Positions 139 through 20,250 of a DNA stretch of 20,250 nucleotides are shown piece by piece. Below the pieces are notes generated by a model, which made no database searches, had not been told where the DNA came from, and saw only the letters and a list, made by a program, of their open reading frames with translations. Each line of letters begins with the position of its first letter. Within the stretch, counting starts at the first letter, position 1. The stretch is from the NCBI GenBank assembly GCA_001275005.1, contig JWZX01002970.1:1-20250 (forward strand), read 5' to 3'. A program made the position numbers and the translations under genes. The stretch comes from Chrysochromulina tobinii. Lineage: Eukaryota > Haptophyta > Prymnesiales > Chrysochromulinaceae.

Positions 139-594
139 CGGCGGCCTGCATCTTGCACCGCAGTCGGCACAATCGGACCCTAAGGCACATGAGTCGTAGG
201 AGGCCGTCGGGCCTCCGTCGTCGCAGAGGTTGTCACGGGCATATTGACACGTATTGGCGCACCGGCACCCGTTCGCGTCCGTCGACTGTGTGCGTCGAGC
301 CACGGCTTTCCTGAGAGTCGGGCTACTTGATGATGATGCAGGTGGCGGCAGCGCTGGCTCGAGAGGTGGTGGTCTCAACACCACTGGCGATGCGAGCACG
401 ACAGGACAGAAGAGTGCCAGCGCAGTTATGCCATTTGTCACGACGAGGAAGAGAAGGCGGGCAAGCCGAGTCGTGGACTCGGAACAGCCCGATCTGCGAC
501 TGGGCTGGATCCCGACGTTCACTGCGGCATGGACGTATCGAGTGGAGGGTGCTTGCATGGACGTCGAGGCCGGCCGGCCGGGGGTCGCGGCCAT
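1..594 (-). CDS. Cys-rich (LNR-like) and Pro/Ser-rich secreted or membrane-anchored protein, 3' end beyond window
   Basis: On the minus strand an open frame runs from about 717 to base 1 with no stop, so the C-terminus lies outside the window. In-frame ATG codons are at 702, 594 and 558; I list 594, but a spliced N-terminus is possible. Seen: a basic n-region followed by a long hydrophobic stretch (about residues 44-69 from 594, nt 465-388), which fits a signal peptide or signal anchor. Next comes a linker, then eight cysteines at nt 261-139 with spacing C-x-C-x3-C-x7-C-x11-C-x5-C-x2-C-x3-C, including CDDGG and DCADCG. From nt 138 to the edge it is almost purely Pro/Ser (PPPSPPP type). I remember this Cys module next to Pro/Ser linkers in haptophyte and prasinophyte predicted proteins; it resembles Lin12/Notch repeats. 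Such Pro/Ser stretches are typical of hydroxyproline-rich cell-surface proteins. The function is unknown. It is divergent from the channel gene. Confidence 0.62.
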   Translation of the reverse strand, partial: MAATPGRPASTSMQAPSTRYVHAAVNVGIQPSRRSGCSESTTRLARLLFLVVTNGITALALFCPVVLASPVVLRPPPLEPALPPPASSSSSPTLRKAVARRTQSTDANGCRCANTCQYARDNLCDDGGPTASYDSCALGSDCADCGARCRPPPSPPKPPRPSPPPPSPPPPIPPPSPPPFPPPPSPPPSPPPSPPPPS

Positions 595-782
595 CGCGGG
601 GTGCTTTGGAAAAAAAAAAACCTGGACGGGCACTGTTTGGAATACGGTTACAAAACGGATGCATGCAAGTTTCTTTTCTATCTGCGGAGCCAAATTGCAC
701 ATGGTCAGAGACGATGTTCAGCAGCTGCCGGAAGCTAGAGTCTGAGGAAAGCACTGCTTCGCCACCGGAGCGGTGCAAGCCC
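595..782. promoter_or_regulatory. Probable divergent promoter and 5' leader region
   Basis: This short interval lies between the minus-strand Cys-rich gene and the plus-strand channel gene. It contains a run of ten A at 610-619. The plus-strand frame of the channel is open through here, but the residues it would encode are antisense to the Cys-rich gene and look unlike protein, so I treat the stretch as regulatory or leader sequence. No clear TATA element is seen. Confidence 0.35.
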
Positions 783-3700
783 ATGCGCAGGCCGGCCGTG
801 GAGCGGTACGAAACGTTCAACTTCAAGAGCATCGACGACCTGCGCAAAGTGGGCTTCACGCGTGCTCAAGCCGAGGGCGTGATCATTTCGCGCAATCAGA
901 CGTCGACCCGCTCAACGAAGTCATCCGCGCTCAAGACAGAGGCATACGAGGCAACCGACCTACGAGATGCTGGCTTCACGCCGGACCAGCTGCGCGCGGC
1001 GGGCTTTGGCGTCGATGTAGTTGTCGAGGCAGGCTTCGAGCCCGCGGTGCTCGCAGGTTCGATGGACCCGACATCGATAGAGATCCTATCGAAGGCGGGG
1101 TATACGGCAGCCGAGCTCATCGGGACGGGCTTCACGCCCAAGCAGCTGCGCGCGGCCGGCTACACCATCGACACGCTGCGCCGGGAGGCGAAACTAAGCG
1201 TGACCGAACTGCGCGTCGCAGGCTTCATAGCGGCCCAGCTCAAGGATGCGGGCTTCAGCGGACGCGACCTCAAGGAGGCGGGTTACAGCCTGGCCGCCAT
1301 GCGTAAGGCCGGCTTCACCGCCGCACAGCTCGGCAAGAGGTCGGGCTTCACTCTGGAAGAGCTCAAGGAGGCTGGCTACATGGCGGTCGACCTGCGTCCA
1401 GCGGGCTTCTCTCCGCAGACGCTGCTCAGTGTGGGCTTCAGCCAGATCGAGGTGGGCAAGGCGGGCTTCACGCACTCGGAGCTCGAGGGCAAGCCTACGG
1501 AAGCCACCAAGCAACCCGTGGATGTGCTCGCTGCAGCGCGCAAGCTCCGCCAGCAACATCAGCAGTACGGCTCGTCGCGCCGGCAGTACGGCGACGGCAG
1601 CGCGGCCCCGTCTGCGCTGCCTGGCGCCGACGAGCCGCTGCCCGACCTGGGTGGACTGCTGCAACGGCCAGCCGCAACAGCGGTGATCGGGCCCAGTGGG
1701 CGAGTGTACCGCGGCGCCTCGCTGCTGCCGTGCCTGCGGCCCGGCACTGAGCCCCGTCGTACGGCCATCTTTCTCGTCGAGTCGAGTCTCTTTGAGCCGA
1801 TGGTGCTGACGGCGATCCTGCTCAACGTGCTCACCATGGCATGGGAGTCGCCACTCGACCCGCCGGGCACGCCCAAGGCCGCGCTGCTCGCGCTATGTGA
1901 GAGCACGTTCCTCGGCGTGTATACTGTCGAGCTGCTCGTCAAGGTGCTCGCGTTCGGTTTTCTGACATCCGAGGGCGCGTATCTCCGCGACCCGTGGTGC
2001 CAGCTCGACTTTGCAGTCGTTTCGCTCGCGTGGGTTCCCATCCTCTTCCCCAACAATACGCTACCAAACCTCTCCGTCGTGCGCTCCGTGCGCGCGCTGC
2101 GGCCACTACGCACGTTACGCTTCGTTCCGGGAATGCCGGTGCTCGTGCGCACCATCCTCGACGCGATCCCGAAGATGGCCAACGTGGGGCTGCTCTGCGC
2201 TTTCTTACTGCTCGTCTTCGGCATCTTCGGCATGCAAGTGTACCACGGACAGCTCCACTACCGGTGCGCGCTTCCTGGCTACGCCGCCACACTCGACCCG
2301 GTGACGGGCCGCTCGAGCCTGCTGCCTGAGGCCCAGCGGAACTACGACACGGAGGTGCCGTGCAGCCTCGCCGACGTCGCGAGTTGCGCGGGGGTCCACG
2401 AGGACGGCGAGACGGCGTGCGCATACTTCAGCGCGAACCCGGGCGGAGGCCTGCTCTCCTTCGACAACTTTGGCGAGGCGTGCGTCGTGATGCTGATGGC
2501 ATTCACCTTCGATGATTGGGCGACACCCATGTACCTCCTGATGAAGTCGGGAGAGCCGCTAGCATGGATCTACTTTGTGCTTGTGGTGGTACTCGGAGGC
2601 TTCTTTGTGTCGAACTTGTTCCTCGCCGTCATCTTTGACGCCTTCGTCGCCGAGAAGGTCGCTGACGAAGTCGTCGACGAAGTCGCCGCACGAACCGTCG
2701 GTGGAGGTACGGGTAACGCCGCCGTCGCCCCGGACCTGACCGACATGATCGATGACCCGGCGCCAGAAAACCACTTGCTGCGAGCCCCACCGAAGCGCCC
2801 GCAGCGACTCGGCGCCATCCCCGAGGAGAACCGCCCGAACGTGAAACTGCTTGCTCCGGGGATGGTGCACTCGGACTCGTTGTTCGAGGAGCCTCCGTTC
2901 AGGAATCAACTGCGGATGCACTCGACACGCGCCGAGCTGCTCAGGGATCGGCTGGTACTGGCGGCAAGCGACTCGGACCGTCGCTCCGAGGCCGTGCACC
3001 TTCTCGAGCTCCGGCTCGTCGACACAGGGCGGAGGGAGCCATGGTCACATCTGCTGTGCAGCTGCGCACGCTTCAAGTGTTGTCGCCCTGAGGGCGAGAG
3101 CGAGGGCGCAGGCTGCTCACTTGAGGCCCTGGCCACGTCGAGCGCTCTCGCGAGCTTCTCGACGGCCCTCGTCCTCGTCGATATGCTCATCATGTGCCTG
3201 CCGTACGAAGGCATGCCGCCTAGCTACGCCGAGGCGCTCGAGCTCGCCTGCACGGCCATCACAGGGCTCTTTGTGCTCGAGATGGCGCTCAAGCTCTGCG
3301 GGCTCGGCTGCCTCGGCTACTGGTCGGACAACTGGAATGTTCTCGATGGGTTGATTGTGATCGAGTCGGTCGTTGACGTGCTGCTGACGGACTTTTTCAT
3401 TGTCTTCGGTGACGGCACTGACGTGCCCAAGCTCTCGTTCCTGCGCGTGCTGCGGATGCTGCGGGTGGTGCGCGTGCTGAAGCTGATGCGCAGCTGGAGC
3501 GGGCTGTACAAGATCATCGTCACATTTGGGGCCGCGATCTCGCAGATCTCCAACCTGTTCGTGCTCATGTCGCTCGTGATCATCATCTTCTCCCTCATAG
3601 GCATGCAGCTTTTCGGCGGCCTGTACAATCCATCGACGGGCTACTCGAGCTTGCCGTGCCCGGGCGGCGTGTGTCCCGACCCTGAGCTCCAGGAGCTGCC

Positions 3701-6700
3701 TCACTATCACTTCGACTACTTCGCAGCGGCGCTCCAGACCGTCTTCATCCTCATGACCGGCGCGTGGGTCGACCCGATGAGTCCGGCCACGGACGTGCTC
3801 GGTCCGATAGCTTGCTTGTACTTCATCGTCGCCGTCATTATCGGGCGCTACTTGATCATGAACCTCTTTGTCGGAATCCTACTGAACTCGTTCTCGGACG
3901 TGGATGCATCCGACGAAACCGGCAAAAGCTCCTCGCCTCCCACCCCGCCCACAACCGACCGCGCGCTCCTCGTGCTCCCTGAGGACGGCTCGCCAGCGCC
4001 CACGGCGGCGCCTCAGAGCAGCCTGAGCGACTCGGCGCGGCTAACGGCTCTCTTCAAACGGCGTCGAGAGAGCTATGAGGAGTTCGAGCCCAAGCCGCCG
4101 CTCGACGCGCTTGGGCTGCAAATCCTCGAAGAGGATGGCAGCCATCTCAGTGACGAGGGATGGCCTAACGGGCACGCTCTGCTCTGCTTCGGCCCGCGCA
4201 ACCCGCTCCGTCGCACCCTCTATCGCGTGGTGCAGCACCCTCTCTTCGACAGCTTCACCATCGTGATCGTGCTCGCCTCGTCGGTTGCTCTCACGCTCGA
4301 CTCGCCGCGGCTCGAGCCGGACGAGCCACTGGCCCAGCTGCTGCACACGCTTGACTATGTGTGGATGGCCATCTTTGTCCTGGAGCTGCTCGCCAAGAGC
4401 ATCGCGTTTGGCTTCCTCAACGGCCGGCGTGCGTACCTGCGCTCTGTTTGGAACCAACTCGACGGCCTCATCGTGCTCGCATCGTTGCTCGTGATGCTCG
4501 CGGAGTCCTTCCCCGTGCTGTTGCCGCTCAAGGCGCTGCGCATATTGCGAGTGCTCCGGCCGCTCCGGATTATCTCACGCGCTCCTGCGATGAAGCTGAT
4601 CGTCACGTCCCTCGCCAAGGCACTGCCTGCCGCCTCGAATGCCTTCGGCCTCCTGCTCGCGATCCAGAGCGTCTTCGCGATTCTGGGTATGCAGCTATTC
4701 ATGGGCGATTTTGCGTCGTGCTCAGACCCCTCTATCCTAACCGCCGCCGAGTGCGTCGGTGATAGCAGCCGCCACCACCACCACCACCCCATCCCCCACA
4801 ACCACAGGCAGCTGCGCGGCGGCAGCGGCAGTAGCCAGAATCCTGGCGGGGTGCTCAGGTGGGCGAGCCCGACCCTGGGCTCCTTTGACGATTTCGGGAG
4901 CGCCATGAGGCTGTTGTATGTCATGAGCACGGGGGATAATTGGGAGGCGCCCATGTACATGATGATGGCTGCGACCGAGCCGGGCCACGCGCCCGTGCGC
5001 AATGACTACTCGCCCGCCGCCTTCTTCTCGATCCTATGGATGTTCGTTGGCTCCTTTTTTGCGCTCAACCTCTTCGTCGGCGTCATTTGCGACTCGTTCA
5101 ACAAGATCAAGCGCGAGACTAACCAATCCGCGACTATGACGCAAGAGCAGCAGCAGTGGGTGGACACGATGCGCGCCGCCGCCAAGCTCAAGCCGAGCAG
5201 CGGCGCGCGCCCGCCAGCAGGGGGCGTGCACCGGAAGATCTTTGACATGGTTCAGTCACCACCGTGGGAAGCGGGGATCACCATCGTGATCCTCGCCAAC
5301 GTCTCGCTCATGGCTTGCGACTACTGGGACATGGACACGCAGCCCGAGGTGCTCGCCGCCTTCAACGCGACGCTCCGTGGCTTTGGGTACATCTACTACG
5401 CCGAGGCATGCATCAAACTGCTCGCACTTGGGCCCGCGGGCTACTTTGGCGACGGTTGGTGCCGCTTCGACTTCTTCCTCGTCTGCGCGTCCCTCATCGA
5501 AGAGTTCGCGTCCGGCATCTTCGAGGGGCCCATGCCGCCGTTTGTGCTGCGCTTCCTGCGACTGCTGCGCATCCTGCGCATCCTGCGGCTGCTCAGGGGG
5601 GCGCGCGAGCTGCGCGATCTCGTCATGACGATGGTACTCTCTGTCCCGGCGCTGATCAACGTGAGCTCGCTCCTCGCGCTCGTCGTCTTCATGTACGCGG
5701 TGCTTGGCGTCTTCCTCTTCACCTTCCTCGCGCCGCAGCAGAACATCAACGAGGAGCGCAACTTTGTCAACCTGCGCTCGACGAGCCTGCTGCTCTTCCA
5801 GGTGCTCACGGGCGACGCGTGGTCAGGCCTCATGACCGACGCAATGCTCGACGAGGCGAGCGGCCTGTGCGAGCCGGCCCGGTCTGCCGGCAACGGCTAC
5901 GGCACGTGTGGCGGCACAGTGTCCATCCCCTACTTTATCTCGTTCATGTTCCTTGGATCATTCGTCTTCCTCAACCTGATCGTCGCCGTGATCCTGGAGA
6001 ACTTCTCGACCCTCAGCTCTCAGCGCGCCGACCTCGTCGCGCCCGGCGACATCGACAACTTCAAAGAGGCTTGGACGATCCTCGACCCGGACGCGGACAA
6101 CTTCATTCCTTCGAAGGACCTGCTGTCCCTCGTGCTCGCGCTCCCGCCGCCGCTCGGCCTCAAGGGCACGCCACGCGCCACCGAAGCGCATGCGAAGCGC
6201 ATGTGCCTGAAGCTCAACGTGGCGCAGTCGCAGGGCCATGTGTCGTTCCACGACGTGCTCCACGCGCTCGTCAAGTACTCGTACCAGGCGGCGCCGGGGG
6301 TGCTCGACGCCGAAAACCTCGAGAGCCTGCACAACAAGGTGTATGACGAGGGTGTGGAGCAGCCAGGCTCGCCCGAGCTCCCGCAGAGCAAGACGAGAGC
6401 GGCGCTACTGTCCGAGGCCGCGCTCAACCCCAAGCTGAAGCGTCGAATGAATGTCGACGAGCGCCTCAAGCTCGAGGCGGAGGAGTTTGCGCTCGACTTG
6501 CCCTCGGCTCGGCGCGTGTTTGCCATGTCGATCATTGCCTCACACGCTATTCGCTGGGTGCGCCGACATGAGCAAAAGCGGCGTGCGAAGGCGACACTTC
6601 TGGCCAAGGCGGATCCAAAGCGCCAGCCGCAGACCCCTCCAAGGACTCCAACGCGCGGCCGCGAGCGCACGCGACATCCGTCTGCCTCGGCTCGTGAGAG

Positions 6701-6788
6701 TACAGCGAAGCCTCCTCTGCCGACGAAGCTCGCCGCCCTCGCCGGGACGAGCCGCCCTGCACTCCTTCAGTACACAGGGCCCCGGTGA
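783..6788 (+). CDS. Four-domain voltage-gated cation channel (CaV/NaV superfamily) with N-terminal AGF repeats
   Basis: Pore-forming alpha subunit, 2001 residues from the ATG at 783, for voltage-gated Ca2+ or Na+ entry. The frame is open upstream (other ATGs at 714 and 327), but that part overlaps the minus-strand Cys-rich gene. Residues 19-236 are about ten-residue AGF/AGY repeats. Four six-helix domains follow at about 333-620, 786-1040, 1150-1445 and 1488-1744. The S4 segments carry charges every third residue: R434-R446, R888-R903, K1250-R1262, R1590-R1608. Pore loops read TFDDW (D577), TGAW (A994), TGDNW (D1385) and TGDAW (D1678), so the filter ring is D/A/D/D, not the animal CaV EEEE or NaV DEKA. 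The III-IV linker has MTQEQ (1452-1456), resembling the NaV linker MTEEQ. The tail has an EF-hand loop (D1768, D1770, D1772, D1779) and an IQ-like basic helix near 1910-1935. The family is certain; ion selectivity is not. Confidence 0.95.
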   Translation: MRRPAVERYETFNFKSIDDLRKVGFTRAQAEGVIISRNQTSTRSTKSSALKTEAYEATDLRDAGFTPDQLRAAGFGVDVVVEAGFEPAVLAGSMDPTSIEILSKAGYTAAELIGTGFTPKQLRAAGYTIDTLRREAKLSVTELRVAGFIAAQLKDAGFSGRDLKEAGYSLAAMRKAGFTAAQLGKRSGFTLEELKEAGYMAVDLRPAGFSPQTLLSVGFSQIEVGKAGFTHSELEGKPTEATKQPVDVLAAARKLRQQHQQYGSSRRQYGDGSAAPSALPGADEPLPDLGGLLQRPAATAVIGPSGRVYRGASLLPCLRPGTEPRRTAIFLVESSLFEPMVLTAILLNVLTMAWESPLDPPGTPKAALLALCESTFLGVYTVELLVKVLAFGFLTSEGAYLRDPWCQLDFAVVSLAWVPILFPNNTLPNLSVVRSVRALRPLRTLRFVPGMPVLVRTILDAIPKMANVGLLCAFLLLVFGIFGMQVYHGQLHYRCALPGYAATLDPVTGRSSLLPEAQRNYDTEVPCSLADVASCAGVHEDGETACAYFSANPGGGLLSFDNFGEACVVMLMAFTFDDWATPMYLLMKSGEPLAWIYFVLVVVLGGFFVSNLFLAVIFDAFVAEKVADEVVDEVAARTVGGGTGNAAVAPDLTDMIDDPAPENHLLRAPPKRPQRLGAIPEENRPNVKLLAPGMVHSDSLFEEPPFRNQLRMHSTRAELLRDRLVLAASDSDRRSEAVHLLELRLVDTGRREPWSHLLCSCARFKCCRPEGESEGAGCSLEALATSSALASFSTALVLVDMLIMCLPYEGMPPSYAEALELACTAITGLFVLEMALKLCGLGCLGYWSDNWNVLDGLIVIESVVDVLLTDFFIVFGDGTDVPKLSFLRVLRMLRVVRVLKLMRSWSGLYKIIVTFGAAISQISNLFVLMSLVIIIFSLIGMQLFGGLYNPSTGYSSLPCPGGVCPDPELQELPHYHFDYFAAALQTVFILMTGAWVDPMSPATDVLGPIACLYFIVAVIIGRYLIMNLFVGILLNSFSDVDASDETGKSSSPPTPPTTDRALLVLPEDGSPAPTAAPQSSLSDSARLTALFKRRRESYEEFEPKPPLDALGLQILEEDGSHLSDEGWPNGHALLCFGPRNPLRRTLYRVVQHPLFDSFTIVIVLASSVALTLDSPRLEPDEPLAQLLHTLDYVWMAIFVLELLAKSIAFGFLNGRRAYLRSVWNQLDGLIVLASLLVMLAESFPVLLPLKALRILRVLRPLRIISRAPAMKLIVTSLAKALPAASNAFGLLLAIQSVFAILGMQLFMGDFASCSDPSILTAAECVGDSSRHHHHHPIPHNHRQLRGGSGSSQNPGGVLRWASPTLGSFDDFGSAMRLLYVMSTGDNWEAPMYMMMAATEPGHAPVRNDYSPAAFFSILWMFVGSFFALNLFVGVICDSFNKIKRETNQSATMTQEQQQWVDTMRAAAKLKPSSGARPPAGGVHRKIFDMVQSPPWEAGITIVILANVSLMACDYWDMDTQPEVLAAFNATLRGFGYIYYAEACIKLLALGPAGYFGDGWCRFDFFLVCASLIEEFASGIFEGPMPPFVLRFLRLLRILRILRLLRGARELRDLVMTMVLSVPALINVSSLLALVVFMYAVLGVFLFTFLAPQQNINEERNFVNLRSTSLLLFQVLTGDAWSGLMTDAMLDEASGLCEPARSAGNGYGTCGGTVSIPYFISFMFLGSFVFLNLIVAVILENFSTLSSQRADLVAPGDIDNFKEAWTILDPDADNFIPSKDLLSLVLALPPPLGLKGTPRATEAHAKRMCLKLNVAQSQGHVSFHDVLHALVKYSYQAAPGVLDAENLESLHNKVYDEGVEQPGSPELPQSKTRAALLSEAALNPKLKRRMNVDERLKLEAEEFALDLPSARRVFAMSIIASHAIRWVRRHEQKRRAKATLLAKADPKRQPQTPPRTPTRGRERTRHPSASARESTAKPPLPTKLAALAGTSRPALLQYTGPR
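837..1490 (+). repeat. Coding decapeptide-like AGF/AGY repeat region
   Basis: About twenty degenerate units of roughly ten residues with consensus LxxAGFTxxxLxxAGY, such as DLRDAGFTPDQLRAAGF and DLKEAGYSLAAMRKAGF, form the cytosolic N-terminus of the channel. The Gly-Phe/Tyr and Leu positions recur while the rest varies, so the repeat is old at the DNA level. I remember similar AGF repeats from algal and other protist proteins, but no function. A short solenoid or a protein-binding scaffold is inference. Confidence 0.85.
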
Positions 6789-9640: not shown

Positions 9641-9808
9641 ACGTGGGTTTGACAATTTCACGTTCACACCTGAGTGTGGTGCGGTCGGGCCGCCGGCAAG
9701 TTCACACTCCAACTTCAAAAAATGCATTTGCGTCAAGCGGTCTCGCTTCGCTCTCTCCGCGGCCGCCGTCAGGCTGCTGCGCTGATATTTTAATTCTAAC
9801 CCTTCTTG

Positions 9809-10495
9809 ATGGTTACGGGCGTCTGGTCCAAGCAAATCAAGGAGGCTAACGAGCGGCGTGGCGGCGACCTCAACTCGCCGGCCATGGCAGGCGCCTGCCT
9901 CGTCCTCGTCGCCGTCTGCGGACTCGGTTTCCGGCTGAAGCTCCAGATGATCCGGGAGTTTGGCCGAGAGGTGCTTTGGCACGTACACGGTGCGCGCGTG
10001 GCTGCAGCGGAGGAAGCGGTGCGACGTGGCGCCAAAGGGCGTGGCTTCGATCCGAGCGCAGGCAGTGGCTTCGGCCCGCGTTCGGCCGGCTGGGATGAGT
10101 ACATGCGCTCGTCGGCCGCGGGCGGCGATGATGGCGCGGGCGTGCACGGGCCGAGTGGTCAAACGCGTTGGCAAGACGAGTGGTTTGGCGAGGACGCGCG
10201 AAGCGGTCGGACAGCCGAAGAGAATCATCGACGAGCGCAGGCGCGTGGCTTTCAAGCGCGAGAGGATGCGCGACGGCGGGCGGCTGATCGCCGCAGTGTT
10301 GGTGAGGATGCGGAGGCGGAGGACTACCGAGCTCTGCTTGGCGTCGGGCCTGGCGCAACCAAAGCGGAGCTCAAACGGGCCTACTATCAGGCGGCAAAGC
10401 GGCACCACCCGGATGCCAATGTACAGGCGAACACGCAGAGCTTTACGCAGCTCAAGGTGGCCTTTGACCGTCTGTCGCAGCGAGCTTCCAGGTGA
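9809..10495 (+). CDS. Membrane-anchored J-domain (DnaJ-like) co-chaperone
   Basis: 228 residues from the ATG at 9809. The frame is open at the preceding TTG, but ATG is the sensible start. Seen: a hydrophobic segment at about 25-41, a long charged Gly/Arg/Ala linker (about 50-168), and a C-terminal J domain at 171-224 starting EDYRALLGV, with the HPD triad H200-P201-D202 that is needed to stimulate Hsp70 ATPase. Most type III J proteins carry the J domain elsewhere; N-terminal helix plus C-terminal J domain is the Pam18/Tim14 topology, although that protein is shorter and its J domain is more divergent. The target membrane is therefore open (mitochondrion, plastid or ER). It starts 168 bases after the PqiA-like gene, and its stop is 67 bases from the stop of the convergent kinase gene. 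Confidence 0.85.
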   Translation: MVTGVWSKQIKEANERRGGDLNSPAMAGACLVLVAVCGLGFRLKLQMIREFGREVLWHVHGARVAAAEEAVRRGAKGRGFDPSAGSGFGPRSAGWDEYMRSSAAGGDDGAGVHGPSGQTRWQDEWFGEDARSGRTAEENHRRAQARGFQAREDARRRAADRRSVGEDAEAEDYRALLGVGPGATKAELKRAYYQAAKRHHPDANVQANTQSFTQLKVAFDRLSQRASR

Positions 10496-10562: not shown

Positions 10563-12218
10563 TTAAAGAATCTGCAGCAATCTGCACATCTCATCTGCTT
10601 TCGTATCTTTTGATTCCGCCGGGTGCTCTCGTCTGTACGCCTCGGTGAGCTCCTCTTCGAAGACCTTGTTCGAGACGAAGTCGAAACTTCGAAAAACTGC
10701 CTGGTCCGATGCGTTGAGCGGCCACGTGGAGCGCATCGACATCGACGTTTGCATGTAGTCGACCTTGGTGCAGAAGTAGTCGATCTGCGAGGTGCCCGTT
10801 GGGATATTCTCGCGCTTGGTCGGCTCATAATCGAGGTCAGGCTCAAAAGGGACGGCCATCTCCTGCGCCATCAACTGTTCCCAGTCGATGGGCTTGAAGA
10901 AAGGATGCTCCTTGATCTCTGCAGGGCCATTCGCGCCGCAGCCAAGGCGCTGGGTCGCGTCGCGGTTTAGGAGAGCGAGCGAGCAGCTCCTACTTGATGC
11001 TTGCATGCTTGACGGCAGAGCGTTTGTCAAGTCCATGTGCTTCGCGAGATGCTCTGACTCCTTGCGGTTGCTGCCGCGCAGAGGGTTATCCCCCGTGAGC
11101 ATCTCGATGATCAAGATACCTACGGTCCACCAATCGGCTGGCTTTCCGTAGTTTCGCTCGTACACCTCGGGCGCACGGTAGCCATGTGTGCCCGTGATCG
11201 ACATGCGCCGGCCCTTGGACAGGTCGACTGGCTTGGCCGTGCACGGTGCGCTCGCCGTCGCTTGTTCTCCGCCCCTGATGGTACCATCGTCGCTAACACC
11301 GCGCGCGGCGCCCATGTCGGCCAGCCTGCAGTTGCCGTTGAGCGTGAGCAGCACGTTGTCGGGCTTCAGGTCGCGGTACAAGATGTCGAGCTCGTGCAGG
11401 TGCTGCATCGCGAGCACGATCTCGGCCGCGTAAAACATGGCGCGTTCATGCGTGTATGGGCCACGCATGAGGTCCGTGTACATGTTCCCACCCTCGATGA
11501 AGTCGAGCACGAGGCAAAGGTGGTCTTCCGTCTGGAAGCCGTAGCGCAGCGCGACGACGAAGGGGTGCTCGACGCATGCGAGCACCTCCTTCTCACGGAA
11601 GATGGAGTGCGTCTGGTTCTGCGACAACAGGATGCGTTTATCCATAACCTTCATCGCGTAGAAGCGCCCCGTGTCCTTCTTCTGCGCCAGCAGCACCATG
11701 CCAAAGCCGCCTGCGCCCAGGAAGTGGTAGAGGTCGAACTCATCCATGTCGACCACCTTGCGCTGTTCGAACTTCAATTCGACCAGTGCATCGTACCCAT
11801 CCGACTCGACGAAGCGCGGAAAGATGTCCATTTTCATCGAGAGCATCACCTCGCTGCGCAGCTCGTCAAAAAGCGTCAGAGATGGAAGATCCGTGAGAAG
11901 CGCTGGCGAGACCTTCTTACGCGTTGCCGCCTTGACTGCTATCTCCATTTTCGTGCCCTCGGCGCAGTACTTTCGAAAGATCTTCTTGGCGACGTGCCTA
12001 CGGTATTCTGGCGCCTCGGCGGTCCGGTAGTCGGCCGTCTCCAGCCAGAAGAGCAGATTCTCCACCGAGCGCTCCTGCACGCAGAAGGACTTGAAGACCT
12101 TCAGATTGACCGGATCGTACAGGATCTGCTCGAGCGACATGGGGCCTTTACCCCGAATTGAGGAGCGCGATACCTGGTCCTTGTATTGAGAGTACATGCC
12201 GCTGTCCTTGGCCGCCAT
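10563..12218 (-). CDS. RGS domain-AGC protein kinase, GRK-like
   Basis: 551 residues, single frame. An RGS-type helical domain (about 27-148, LEQILYDPVNLKVFKSF onward) is followed by a Ser/Thr kinase domain (161-441) and an AGC C-tail (about 442-525, with FEPDLDYEP and FRSFDFV). Catalytic elements are complete: glycine loop G168-x-G170-x2-G173, Lys190, Glu209 or Glu211, YRD 281-283, metal-binding Asp301 in DMG and APE 349-351. RGS plus AGC kinase is the architecture of G-protein-coupled receptor kinases, which phosphorylate active receptors. GRKs also replace DFG, usually with DLG, and have GTxGYMAPE like GTHGYRAPE here. The activation loop has an insert of roughly 25-30 residues ending RRMS (337-340), a PKA-type site. 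No PH domain or obvious lipidation tail is visible, so the mode of membrane recruitment is unknown. Confidence 0.92.
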   Translation of the reverse strand: MAAKDSGMYSQYKDQVSRSSIRGKGPMSLEQILYDPVNLKVFKSFCVQERSVENLLFWLETADYRTAEAPEYRRHVAKKIFRKYCAEGTKMEIAVKAATRKKVSPALLTDLPSLTLFDELRSEVMLSMKMDIFPRFVESDGYDALVELKFEQRKVVDMDEFDLYHFLGAGGFGMVLLAQKKDTGRFYAMKVMDKRILLSQNQTHSIFREKEVLACVEHPFVVALRYGFQTEDHLCLVLDFIEGGNMYTDLMRGPYTHERAMFYAAEIVLAMQHLHELDILYRDLKPDNVLLTLNGNCRLADMGAARGVSDDGTIRGGEQATASAPCTAKPVDLSKGRRMSITGTHGYRAPEVYERNYGKPADWWTVGILIIEMLTGDNPLRGSNRKESEHLAKHMDLTNALPSSMQASSRSCSLALLNRDATQRLGCGANGPAEIKEHPFFKPIDWEQLMAQEMAVPFEPDLDYEPTKRENIPTGTSQIDYFCTKVDYMQTSMSMRSTWPLNASDQAVFRSFDFVSNKVFEEELTEAYRREHPAESKDTKADEMCRLLQIL

Positions 12219-16125: not shown

Positions 16126-16421
16126 CGTTCGGTTAGATAGCCATAAGACATCAGAAAGCAGGGTTGACTTTGAACCGCTTCGATGTCCCGACAACCACAG
16201 CACGCAGGCACATACGATACCTTAATACTACTTCTAACACCGACACAGCTATGAATCACTTTTTATACCCTGTTCGCGAGCGGAAGGCCACGGCGGCGCG
16301 CGCGTACGTCTTCCTTCACAACTGTTTTTCACAGCCAATCTTCACAGCAAAAGGTTTCGCACAAAGACAACGCGGTCGCGGTCGTGCAGCGCACTGGGCT
16401 CACTGGTTCGCGTCGAGCAAA
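16126..16421. other. Intergenic region or 5' extension of the parvulin gene
   Basis: 296 bases between the glycosyltransferase stop and the preferred parvulin ATG. The parvulin frame is open back to at least 16164 (TTG) with an ATG at 16251. The encoded extension is basic and has no acidic run, so it may be a transit peptide rather than untranslated leader. Nothing else is evident. Confidence 0.4.
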
Positions 16422-16832
16422 ATGGGCAAAGATAGGCGTAAGGAGAAGCAAATAGAGGATGAGGCCCTTGGCAAGCAGGCCGACAAGTTCGGCAAGAAGG
16501 GCGACGGAAAGTTGAGGCCCGAGGAGCAGGTCAAGTCGTTTTCACATCAAGAGTGCCGTCACATTCTTGTCGAGAAGCAAGGCGAGGCTCTGCGCATCAG
16601 CGAGGACATCCATAATGGCAAGATCACCTTCAACGAGGCTGCTTTCCAATTTTCGCAGGACAAAGCAGGAGCGCACGGGCTCTTGGGCTGGAAGGCGCAG
16701 CACGAGCTGGACCAGGACTTTTGGGCGGCAGCCCTCACGTGCAAGGAAGGCGACTGGCTGAGGGAGCCGGTCAAAACACAATGGGGCTGGCATCTGATCA
16801 TGGTGCAAGGGCGGAAAACCTTGAAGAAGTAG
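16422..16832 (+). CDS. PIN4: Parvulin-type peptidyl-prolyl cis-trans isomerase, PIN4/Par14-like
   Basis: 136 residues from ATG 16422. A lysine-rich N-terminus (MGKDRRKEKQ...GKKGDGK, 1-32) is followed by one rotamase domain (about 40-132): CRHILVEKQGEALR, FNEAAFQFSQDKA, GLLGWK and the closing VKTQWGWHLIMVQGRK, which matches the Par14 signature VKTKFGYHIIMVEGRK closely. Par14 is about 131 residues and acts in ribosome biogenesis and chromatin or DNA binding through its basic tail; it lacks the WW domain and phospho-binding loop of Pin1, as here. An alternative in-frame ATG at 16251 would add 57 residues (193 in total) with a basic, hydroxylated composition that could target an organelle. Upstream residues at the junction read FASSKMGK. 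The enzyme family is secure; the start is not. Confidence 0.9.
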   Translation: MGKDRRKEKQIEDEALGKQADKFGKKGDGKLRPEEQVKSFSHQECRHILVEKQGEALRISEDIHNGKITFNEAAFQFSQDKAGAHGLLGWKAQHELDQDFWAAALTCKEGDWLREPVKTQWGWHLIMVQGRKTLKK

Positions 16833-17207: not shown

Positions 17208-20200
17208 TTAAGCGTAAGGGCCGAGCATGCCGCCGACGCGCACCGCCGAGCGCAGCGCCGCGCCGTGCGCCGTGAGCGGCTGCCAGTCCGCACGTGCCAC
17301 GCGCTGCTGGAAGGTTCGTGCCGCATGCGCGAAGGACTCGTTGGGCTCGGGGGTGCTGGCCGCAGCAAGATCGAGCGGCGGCAAGAGCTGCCGGCCGCTG
17401 CCGAGGGCGCCACCCATGCCCATGACAGCGCTCATGACCGCGCTGCTGCGGGCCGCCAGACCCCCAGCGAGCGGAGCCCCGATCGCCGTGAACAGTCCCG
17501 ACGCCGCTGTGAATGGTCCCGACGCCGCAGCCCCACTGCATTCTGCCCATGCCTCTCGCCGAGCGTCGGCGCGCCCGTAAGCAGCGTCTCTGTGGCGCTC
17601 GGTACGGCGCTCGGTGCGTGGCTCGTACGCAGTGTCGGCTCTGTGGCGCTCGGTACGGCGCTCGGTGCGTGGCTCGTACGCCGTGTCGGCTCTGTGGCGC
17701 TCGGTACGGCGCTCGGTGCGTGGCTCATACGCCGTGTCGGGCGGGCCGTCGGGTCGGGCGCCGTACTGGGCGCGCAACGGAGCGACACCGCCGTCCTGGG
17801 CGCGCAACGGGGCGACGATGCCGTACTGGGCGCTCGACGGGGCGGCGGCGGCCTCACGCGTGCTCTGAGCTGCGGCCAGCGCACTCTGCGGCCGACGGGT
17901 GCGCGGCGGCGGAGGAGGCAGCAACGGCTGCTGCGGCAATGGCTGCTGCGGCGGCGGCTGCTGCGGCGGCGTCGACGACTGTGCCGATGCGGCAGCAGCT
18001 TCTGCCGCCACGGTGGTGGCGCCGTGTGGCGGGGCGGCGAGGGACGTCGGCGAAGAGGCGGCTGGCGGATAGCCGTAGACTGTGGAAGCGAATGGTGCGG
18101 AGGGCGCACCCCTCGTACCCGTCGTACAATGTGCGGCGGCCGGAGGCGGTAGGGGCGCGGGCTGTGCGTGCGGAGCCGGCGCGGGCGCGGGGTGTGCTGA
18201 GGGCATGCCATACGAGACGAGAAGGGCGGCGAGGGTCGGCGGCATCAGCGCAGAGGGGGGTTGCGAAGGGGACGCCCACGAGGGGGGGTGCGACGACGGC
18301 GGCAGTGGGCCGCACGACGGCGGCAATGCGTACAGCCAATCTCCCCCGAGCTCTGCCCCCAATCTCCCCCAATCTCCACCGAGCTCTGCCCCCAATCTCC
18401 CCCAATCTCCACCGAGCTCTGCCCCCGCAGCGGCAGCTGGCGCGGCGGTCGACTTGTACGAGAGCGGAAGGGAACCAAGGTAGCCTGGGCTGGTTGACGA
18501 GGGGAACGAAGGGCAGGCGCCGTCGCCAGCCGCCTTCCGATGCGCGAGACGGTCGACGAGCTCCGCCGCGAGGTCCACCTCGGCCAGGACGCGCGCCATC
18601 TCGGGCGCCATCTCGGTTCGCTGCCTGCTGGGCGAGCTCGGGGCGCTCGGTACGGCGCCCGGTGCGTCGGCTACATGCGTCGGATTCGCCATCACCGCGT
18701 ATCGCGCCACCATCGGCGGCGACGTGCCCAGCGTGGTGAGCCAGGGCGACGTCGGCTCGGCAGTGAGCAACGCGGCGTGGGCAGTACCAGTGACCACACT
18801 GCTCGTCGATGGCCGGGCTCTGCCGGGCAGGCTGTTCGGGTACATGGGAGCCATTGCATCTTCGAGGAGCTGCATCGACTCATCTAGCGTGCGCTGGCTG
18901 GCTAGACGGAGAGCCTTCGCGACCTCCTCGTCGACACGCCGACGGCGCTCGATGGCACGCCGGCACAGCTTGCGACCGAACTTTTGGATGCGCAACGCCG
19001 CACTCCACTGACCATCCACGGCGGCGCGCACCCGGCGCATCATCTTGGTGTACTCGATCGTATCTGACGAATTGCACGCCACCTCCGCCTCAAGCGCCGC
19101 CACCTCCGCCTCCACCTGCTTCTGCAGCAGCGCCTCCATCTCGGCCAGTTGGCGAGGTTCCATCTCGGCCAGTTGGCGAGGTTCCATCTCGGCCAGTTGG
19201 CGAGGTTCCATCTCGGCCAAAGGGCGTGGCTCGTTGGCGGCCCGATAGTACCGAGATTCCAGATCAGCCAGTTGGCGAGATTCCATCTCGTTGGCGGCCC
19301 GCTGCTTGTACCGCCGTTGGATGATGTTTGCCGCCGCATCGTACTCATACGCTGTTGGCTCCTGCTGCATCCGGCTGAGTTCGGCTCGTAGGCTGTCGAC
19401 CTCATTCTGCTCCTGCTGCATCCGACTGAGTTCGGCTCGTAGGCTGTCGACCTCATTCTGCTCCTGCTGCATCCGACTGAGTTCGGCGCGTAGGCTGTCG
19501 ACCTCATTCTGCTCCTGCTGCATCCGACTGAGTTCGGCGCGATACTGCTGCACCAACGCTGCCTCGCCCTCTGCTCCGGAGCTCTCCACCTCGTCCTGCT
19601 GCTGCTGCTGCTGCTGCGTTCGGCTCAGCTCGGCGCGATTGTGCCTCACCAACGCTGTCTCGCCCTCTCTAGTTTCTGCTGCGGTCTGATGATGGGTTGG
19701 CCCGCGCGCCCCTTCGCTCCGTAGCCGTGCCATCGCCTCCTTGTAGAAAGCTTCGAGCTCGGCCTCGAGATTGTCCTCGAGCTCGCCCTCGAGCTCGGCC
19801 TCGAGATTGCCCTCGAGATTGTCCTCGAGCTCGACCGGCAGCTGTTTCGCCTCCTGTTGCATGTGTGCCATCGCCTCCTTATAGAAAGCTTCGAGCTCCA
19901 TGTACTCAGCCTCCTGTTGCATGCGTGCCATTAGGGTGCGGTAATGGGCCACACGCTCCGCCGCCACCTCGGCCGCCGCCCAGGGCGCATCCTCCGTCGC
20001 CTCATCTTCTCGGATGGTGCCGAGGACGCGTGGCTGATGGCGCCCCTCATCTTCTCGGATGGTGCCGAGGACGCGTGGCTCCGGGCGCCCGCTCCGCTGG
20101 CGTGCTCGCTTTTGGATCAGCTCGGCAGCGCTCTCCATCTCCTCGCGTCTCGCCGCCTCCCGCCACGCCTCCTCCTGCTCCTCCGCCAGTGCCTCGCTCA

Positions 20201-20250
20201 GAGCTTGATCGTCGTCTGCCCAGGACAGCCCTCGCCGTGCCGAGCGCGGC
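17208..20250 (-). CDS. Large repeat-rich coiled-coil protein with IQ-like motifs, N-terminus beyond window
   Basis: The minus-strand frame ends with TAA at 17208-17210 and stays open to base 20250. An ATG at 20138 would give 976 residues, but the upstream codons (ADDDQALSEALAEEQEEAW...) continue the same acidic helical character, so the true start is probably outside. Numbering from that ATG: IQ-like basic helices at about 4-18 (AAELIQKRARQRSGR), 265-281 (AAANIIQRRYKQRAA) and 377-398 (SAALRIQKFGRKLCRRA); Glu/Gln-rich coiled coil over roughly 1-450; a Pro/Ala/Ser/Gln-rich disordered region (about 560-800); an Arg/Glu repeat (about 795-850); and an Ala/Gly-rich C-terminus. Six families of in-frame tandem repeats are listed separately. 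IQ motifs bind calmodulin or calmodulin-like chains; a cytoskeletal or scaffold role is inference. I do not recognise an orthologue. Confidence 0.75.
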   Translation of the reverse strand, partial: PRSARRGLSWADDDQALSEALAEEQEEAWREAARREEMESAAELIQKRARQRSGRPEPRVLGTIREDEGRHQPRVLGTIREDEATEDAPWAAAEVAAERVAHYRTLMARMQQEAEYMELEAFYKEAMAHMQQEAKQLPVELEDNLEGNLEAELEGELEDNLEAELEAFYKEAMARLRSEGARGPTHHQTAAETREGETALVRHNRAELSRTQQQQQQQDEVESSGAEGEAALVQQYRAELSRMQQEQNEVDSLRAELSRMQQEQNEVDSLRAELSRMQQEQNEVDSLRAELSRMQQEPTAYEYDAAANIIQRRYKQRAANEMESRQLADLESRYYRAANEPRPLAEMEPRQLAEMEPRQLAEMEPRQLAEMEALLQKQVEAEVAALEAEVACNSSDTIEYTKMMRRVRAAVDGQWSAALRIQKFGRKLCRRAIERRRRVDEEVAKALRLASQRTLDESMQLLEDAMAPMYPNSLPGRARPSTSSVVTGTAHAALLTAEPTSPWLTTLGTSPPMVARYAVMANPTHVADAPGAVPSAPSSPSRQRTEMAPEMARVLAEVDLAAELVDRLAHRKAAGDGACPSFPSSTSPGYLGSLPLSYKSTAAPAAAAGAELGGDWGRLGAELGGDWGRLGAELGGDWLYALPPSCGPLPPSSHPPSWASPSQPPSALMPPTLAALLVSYGMPSAHPAPAPAPHAQPAPLPPPAAAHCTTGTRGAPSAPFASTVYGYPPAASSPTSLAAPPHGATTVAAEAAAASAQSSTPPQQPPPQQPLPQQPLLPPPPPRTRRPQSALAAAQSTREAAAAPSSAQYGIVAPLRAQDGGVAPLRAQYGARPDGPPDTAYEPRTERRTERHRADTAYEPRTERRTERHRADTAYEPRTERRTERHRDAAYGRADARREAWAECSGAAASGPFTAASGLFTAIGAPLAGGLAARSSAVMSAVMGMGGALGSGRQLLPPLDLAAASTPEPNESFAHAARTFQQRVARADWQPLTAHGAALRSAVRVGGMLGPYA
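17589..17741. repeat. Tandem repeat, three units of 51 bp
   Basis: Units start at 17589, 17640 and 17691 and differ at only one or two bases. They encode three copies of a 17-residue Arg/Glu unit (YEPRTERRTERHRADTA) in the large minus-strand gene. The low divergence points to recent expansion. Confidence 0.95.
18336..18427. repeat. Tandem repeat, 33-bp unit
   Basis: Units start at 18346, 18379 and 18412, with a partial copy before them. They encode the 11-residue unit AELGGDWGRLG on the minus strand and are almost identical. Confidence 0.93.
19136..19231. repeat. Tandem repeat, four units of 24 bp
   Basis: Units start at 19136, 19160, 19184 and 19208; the last is degenerate. They encode the 8-residue unit EPRQLAEM on the minus strand within the coiled-coil part. 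Confidence 0.93.
19359..19542. repeat. Tandem repeat, 51-bp unit, nearly four copies
   Basis: Units start at 19359, 19410, 19461 and 19512. They encode the 17-residue unit AELSRMQQEQNEVDSLR on the minus strand. The unit length equals that of the unrelated repeat at 17589. Its helical, heptad-like composition fits coiled coil. Confidence 0.95.
19596..19616. repeat. CTG/CAG microsatellite (seven units)
   Basis: Seven perfect CTG triplets on the plus strand read as a seven-residue Gln tract on the minus strand inside the coiled-coil region. It is likely to vary in length between strains. Confidence 0.95.
19729..19899. repeat. Dispersed direct repeat encoding ELEAFYKEAMA
   Basis: A block of about 32 bp at 19729-19760 recurs at 19868-19899 with one difference (TTGTAG versus TTATAG). 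Between them are shorter repeats of the type CTCGAGCTCG/CTCGAGATTG encoding LEAELE and LEDNLE units. All are in frame with the minus-strand gene. Confidence 0.85.
20001..20080. repeat. Direct repeat, 45-bp period, two copies
   Basis: A 35-bp identical block starts at 20001 and again at 20046. It encodes two copies of PRVLGTIREDE near the visible N-terminal end of the large minus-strand gene. Confidence 0.9.

Follow-up and report, generated by a model that had tools for sequence, protein, structure and literature searches.

Organization of the gene

The stretch of DNA considered here (the window, 20,250 nucleotides of contig JWZX01002970.1 of the haptophyte Chrysochromulina tobinii) carries on its forward strand, at 783..6788, a gene for a protein of 2001 residues in which an array of decapeptide repeats precedes a four-domain ion channel. 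The repeats and the channel lie in one frame, open without interruption from 327 to 6788, and four stretches of it match Ion_trans (PF00520; 673 bits against a cut-off of 25), so that the continuous frame and the four-domain channel of a preliminary description of this DNA are both borne out. That description began the element at 837, a position that falls within the first repeat unit; the likely start codon is instead ATG 783, because the proteins P0002 and P0246 start at the identical residue and because third-position G+C, which is 0.81 over the repeats and 0.84 over the channel, drops in this frame to 0.58 over 327-782. P0002 is a separate sequence with 99% identity to the window protein and identical limits, and stands for a cluster of 91 members. 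The anatomy of the protein is near certain: a short N-terminal tail is followed by an isolated unit with a helix, an array of about 18 units, a linker, a pre-pore stretch, four Ion_trans domains, a GPHH region and a basic C-terminal stretch. The features, all on the forward strand, are as follows:

783..6788, +, whole gene, repeats and four-domain channel (domain matches, G+C, limits of P0002)
828..902, +, isolated first unit and the helix after it, SIDDLRKVGFTRAQAEGVIISRN (alignment; model helices 17-22 and 27-40)
948..1490, +, main decapeptide array, about 18 units, residues 56-236, PF25296, predicted alpha-solenoid (profile match, motif count, model)
1173..1199, +, off-register unit TLRREAKLS with an 11-residue step (alignment)
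1329..1349, +, second off-register unit LGKRSGF, often LxKKxG, with an 11-residue step (alignment)
1491..1643, +, array-to-channel linker, about 50 residues, low model confidence (alignment, model confidence)
1644..1772, +, conserved stretch ahead of domain I, with GPSGRVY and CLRPxxEPRRxAI (alignment)
1785..2657, +, domain I, Ion_trans; filter TFDDW at 2505-2519 (profile match, alignment)
3144..3908, +, domain II, Ion_trans; filter MTGAW at 3753-3767 (profile match, alignment)
4236..5120, +, domain III, Ion_trans; filter TGDNW at 4929-4943 (profile match, alignment)
5124..5159, +, domain III-IV linker motif QSATMTQEQQQW, aligning with the sodium-channel IFM gate (alignment)
5259..6026, +, domain IV, Ion_trans; filter TGDAW at 5808-5822 (profile match, alignment)
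6057..6206, +, GPHH (pre-IQ) region, 28.7 bits against a cut-off of 26.8 (Pfam match)
6507..6590, +, candidate basic stretch where an IQ-like calmodulin site is expected (read by eye)

The repeat array and its predicted fold

The N-terminus matches the Pfam family PF25296, 'Decapeptide', at 170.9 bits when taken alone and at 155 bits within the whole protein, well above the cut-off of 45. Within the first 240 residues the motif [LMVIF]xxxG[FYIVL] occurs 15 times, against a mean of 1.56 and a maximum of 8 in 10,000 letter shuffles, and 10 pairs of motifs stand at a spacing of exactly 10, where the shuffles gave 0.008 (maximum 1). The unit consensus, [ST]-P-x-[EQ]-L-[KR]-x-A-G-[FY], derives from 81 units collected with a regular expression on six proteins, a few of the matches lying outside the arrays. 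The isolated first unit has a counterpart in 9 of 13 fused relatives, the remaining four having no residues at that place. Both off-register units have an identical location in all 12 rows shown; the absence of Gly-Phe from the first of these is common to the 12, while its other letters differ.

Decapeptide repeats are plentiful in the source genome (at least 168 matches), and PF25296 is a described family common in DotG/IcmE-like and other proteins, so that 'algal', as the module had been called, is too narrow. Among 120 listed long repeat proteins, by our own count, the repeats are accompanied by PF03743 in 61 (several of these proteins being named DotG/IcmE), by EF-hands in nine and by Ion_trans in two. 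The repeat itself was thus already known, and what appears to be new, judging by domain matches, is the architecture formed by its presence on a channel, that is, by two known families; no description of a decapeptide-channel fusion was found in the open-licence literature, judged by titles and by passages of the papers cited here. As a separate observation, the large proteins with both decapeptide repeats and EF-hands (P0033, P0034, P0041, P0074, P0084, P0091, P0096, P0098 and P0120) might represent a second link between the repeat and Ca2+.

Prediction of the fold, which the preliminary description had proposed as a check, gave a helical structure: two AlphaFold2 runs concur in giving each unit one helix some six residues long, with block values of the predicted local distance difference test (pLDDT) of 83-94 over residues 101-230 and lower values before. 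Residues 17-234 of the model contain 20 helices, of which 18 fall in 57-234, and the earlier figure of 'about twenty' repeats is therefore a fair one. Each unit is predicted to form one short alpha-helix closed by Gly-Phe/Tyr, with about 18 of these stacked as an alpha-solenoid. The unit consensus is compatible with a helix capping box and a glycine C-cap, and by its letters looks like a capped short helix. Structure searches gave no clear match in the PDB.

Pentapeptide repeats, whose fold is a right-handed quadrilateral beta-helix, were considered as an alternative and not retained as the main reading. The match to PF13599 reaches 19.2 bits against a cut-off of 38, which falls short of membership; the residue two before the unit's Leu is charged or polar in 43% of the 81 units and small in 42%; proline is found mainly at position 2; and both AlphaFold2 models are helical.

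Recurrence and origin of the fusion

Relatives were drawn from database listings of the 120 best rows each, from about 8,000 candidates scored, each row being a cluster. PF25296 and Ion_trans occur together in at least 10 clusters: P0002, P0114, P0122, P0123, P0124 and P0127 (6 of 120 in one listing), and P0240, P0241, P0242 and P0244 (4 of 120 in another). Four N-terminal pieces, P0246, P0251, P0276 and P0312, continue from the repeats across the linker and into S1, two of them also through S2; the place where their similarity ends varies from S1 to the end of S2, these places possibly being introns. At least 14 protein clusters in total thus have repeats, linker and domain I in this order. 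On contig C1479 of the same genome lies a second gene with the first unit, the repeats and the channel in order on one strand in several open frames, which we interpret as exons; it is truncated by the contig end. The fusion, whose absence from all orthologues would have spoken against the preliminary description, is accordingly recurrent, and the earlier interpretation is partly supported. That assembly or gene modelling merged two genes would agree with the finding that no named transcript with both domains is among the matches listed, yet with P0002 as a distinct sequence, the same order of parts in 14 clusters and the second gene in the same genome, such an artefact is barely credible. Contig C1970 was rejected as a further case: there, a long decapeptide array and Ion_trans domains are neighbours but occupy opposite strands.

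A tree of the channel parts was built by a 'quick' method with midpoint rooting and with support solely from the Shimodaira-Hasegawa-like approximate likelihood ratio test (SH-aLRT). It has 64 rows, namely the C1479 gene and 63 of the 88 rows, among 120 candidates, that cover more than 70% of the channel; left out were P0002 as a near-copy, 25 covering rows and 32 short rows, and the later finds P0240, P0241, P0242, P0244, P0246, P0251, P0276 and P0312 are absent. The C1479 row is partial, may contain intron letters and was flagged for unusual letter composition. The seven fused rows form one clade (SH-aLRT 99) with a single change of fusion state, a value that none of 500 shuffles matched or undercut. 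This clade nests in a clade of 43 rows that includes the C. tobinii proteins P0126 and P0163. By our count, 23 of the 36 unfused rows in the larger clade show a repeat-free N-terminus, some of only about 50 residues for which an upstream exon is possibly missing, and 13 have their first residue within domain I or beyond it; no repeats are present in the near groups whose N-terminus can be seen, namely P0125, P0126, P0131, P0140 and P0144. On these sequences the fusion seems to have arisen once.

Conservation of the array

Identities of the relatives to the window protein, given as array/linker/S1-S2, are 91/98/95% in the nearest, P0246, 81/54/82% in P0251, 66/51/58% in P0276 (where S2 is missing, so that 58% is low) and 48/14/60% in P0312. 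In P0251 and P0276 the array is thus held about as firmly as S1-S2 and more firmly than the linker, which is little conserved outside the nearest relative. A unit-by-unit comparison over 17 units was made in 8 of the 13 relatives. The unit at the same position is the best or joint best match for 17 of 17 in P0246, P0251 and P0276 and for 10 of 17 in P0312, which argues that the units have not been homogenised in the close relatives; in distant ones single units often appear to be no longer distinguishable.

These figures bear on the proposal that the repeats are carried along neutrally, as a promiscuous sequence that fusion captured and that has drifted since. Their abundance in the genome and their company with many unrelated domains would suit it, as would the faster evolution of the array relative to S1-S2 in nine farther relatives. 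Against this stand the closeness of array and S1-S2 identities in P0251 and P0276, the shared location of the off-register units, and the retention of repeats in 14 of 14 clusters, down to 32% identity (the clusters having been found partly via the repeats), and on balance we consider mere drift quite unlikely.

The linker and the channel

Linker pLDDT falls below 50 at residues 237-247 and 259-287. The stretch that follows, ahead of domain I, also occurs in channels without repeats. In the NOMPC-type TRP channels a chain of ankyrin repeats passes force to the pore, and a long predicted solenoid on a channel N-terminus invites the comparison with such a spring or tether; a linker of about 50 residues, of low confidence and mostly poorly conserved, would nevertheless give slack, and we regard force transmission of this kind as very unlikely.

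Arg/Lys-rich segments assigned by eye as S4 are RSVRALRPLRTLRF, RVLRMLRVVRVLKLMRSW, KALRILRVLRPLRIISRAP and RFLRLLRILRILRLLRGAREL. Of six fused rows, two, the window protein and P0124, have the selectivity filter D/A/D/D and four have D/E/D/D; the two filters differ by Ala versus Glu in domain II, whose loop has the shorter form, as in sodium-channel rows. The channel therefore has neither the D/E/K/A filter of metazoan Nav channels nor the E/E/E/E filter of high-voltage-activated Cav channels, and the place aligned with the IFM inactivation motif of metazoan Nav channels reads ATM. The filter letters suggest a divalent-permeable or poorly selective cation channel, and neither selectivity nor inactivation can be predicted with confidence from the letters of the filter and the IFM position.

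ATM is found in all six fused rows and might weaken inactivation of the lid type, which raises the question of whether the N-terminal module governs gating, as an inactivation particle or as a docking element replacing the hinged lid. A precedent is NaVEh, a single-domain sodium channel of Emiliania huxleyi in which an N-terminal helix is reported to inactivate the channel (PMC9114117). ATM does not depend on the repeats, as it also stands in 25 of the clade's 36 unfused rows; moreover, the stretch ahead of the first unit is unconserved, ranging from about 10 residues (P0127) to more than 100 (P0241), and a folded array of this size would hardly enter the pore. A role in gating is on these grounds unlikely.

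A proposed binding arm on the channel

The reading that we favour, and hold to be somewhat probable, is that the array acts in the cytosol as a binding arm, attached by a flexible linker, that places or scaffolds the channel. The solenoid would lie in the cytosol, tied to domain I through the linker of about 50 residues, and would either hold the channel at a site or bring a partner near the pore; a cytoskeletal, membrane-contact or signalling protein might serve as that partner. Because of the linker, a direct mechanical pull on the pore is unlikely. Given the divalent or cation permeability that the filter suggests, such an arm would keep a Ca2+ or cation signal local. A scaffolding or linking role, as the preliminary description suggested, is in keeping with the solenoid prediction and with how well the array is conserved in P0251 and P0276.

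Several observations, in addition to the lack of a two-domain transcript mentioned above, weigh against a binding arm. The transcript-derived sequences among the matches listed have one part each: P0103 has repeats and no channel, and P0150 is a channel beginning inside domain I. The AlphaFold2 models were built on 7 and 14 sequences and have predicted template modelling scores (pTM) of 0.46 and 0.54, and chains named beta1 and their variants, which we take to be designed pentapeptide-type beta-solenoids, show weak matches to the repeats, with E from 2.7e-5 to 0.018. Identity to P0246, the nearest relative, is higher in the linker than in the array; in the nine farther relatives array identity is 32-41% against 56-69% for S1-S2; and the same-position unit is the best match for only 3 of 17 in P0124, 5 of 17 in P0127, 7 of 17 in P0114 and 8 of 17 in P0242.

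A bolder and rather doubtful extension would see here an unrecognised class of voltage-gated channels, in which a solenoid with a fixed number of units acts as a cytosolic arm anchoring a Ca2+-type channel to a specific structure, such as the flagella or the haptonema; with one alpha-helix per ten residues, its units might be among the shortest helical repeats. The rapid coiling of the haptonema of haptophytes has been reported to require Ca-dependent changes in microtubules. Were a binding arm to be confirmed, a protist voltage-gated channel would have a conserved binding arm within its own chain, offering a direct handle on how a unicellular alga positions electrical and Ca2+ signals in the cell. 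The array, small and probably soluble, would also lend itself to determining how the decapeptide repeat folds.

Other features of the window

Elsewhere in the window, the reverse strand at 10563-12218 encodes a protein kinase (Pkinase 4.2e-51) that bears an RGS domain (1.6e-22) at its N-terminus, a layout typical of G-protein-coupled receptor kinases. On the forward strand lie a C-terminal DnaJ domain (9806-10495, 5.7e-11) and a parvulin-type prolyl isomerase domain (16164-16832, 7.5e-13). A long low-complexity open frame on the reverse strand at 17208-20249 contains several near-perfect tandem repeats of 24-51 bases and has no Pfam match at E 0.01.

Comparison with known systems

With pentapeptide repeat proteins the array shares the weak matches to PF13599 and to the beta1-type designs, and differs in being predicted as helical rather than beta. 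In Emiliania huxleyi, six coccolith-associated proteins have been reported to contain pentapeptide motifs (PMC10290126). The large decapeptide proteins with EF-hands, fibronectin-III, RCC1, RRM or kinase-ankyrin domains have the repeat in common with the window protein, and among the matches listed they are without Ion_trans.

The likeness to the Legionella secretion protein DotG/IcmE lies in the repeat unit and its spacing (E 6.5e-82 to DotG chains), and 30-base-pair repeats in 18 and 7 copies were reported for the Legionella gene in 2008 (PMC2639597). The DotG-like proteins differ in having PF03743, the DotG/IcmE C-terminal domain, which is absent from a Pfam scan of the window protein at E up to 1; in the window protein the repeats precede a channel instead. 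A cryo-electron microscopy study of the Legionella system from 2021 modelled DotG at 791-824, with a homology model for about 857-1046 (PMC8486379), as against 590-668 for the best repeat match on DotG; the later DotG entries 9ngv and 9ngw are among the chain matches.

Known four-domain channels (PMC5824947) resemble the window protein in the four Ion_trans domains, the Arg/Lys-rich S4 segments (by eye), the acidic filter residues, the GPHH region and a Nav-like domain III-IV linker. The term 'n-termin' occurs 0 times in the main text of that account. The window protein departs from these channels in combining a D/A/D/D filter with a domain II loop of Nav length, in having ATM in place of IFM, and in bearing the N-terminal decapeptide domain.

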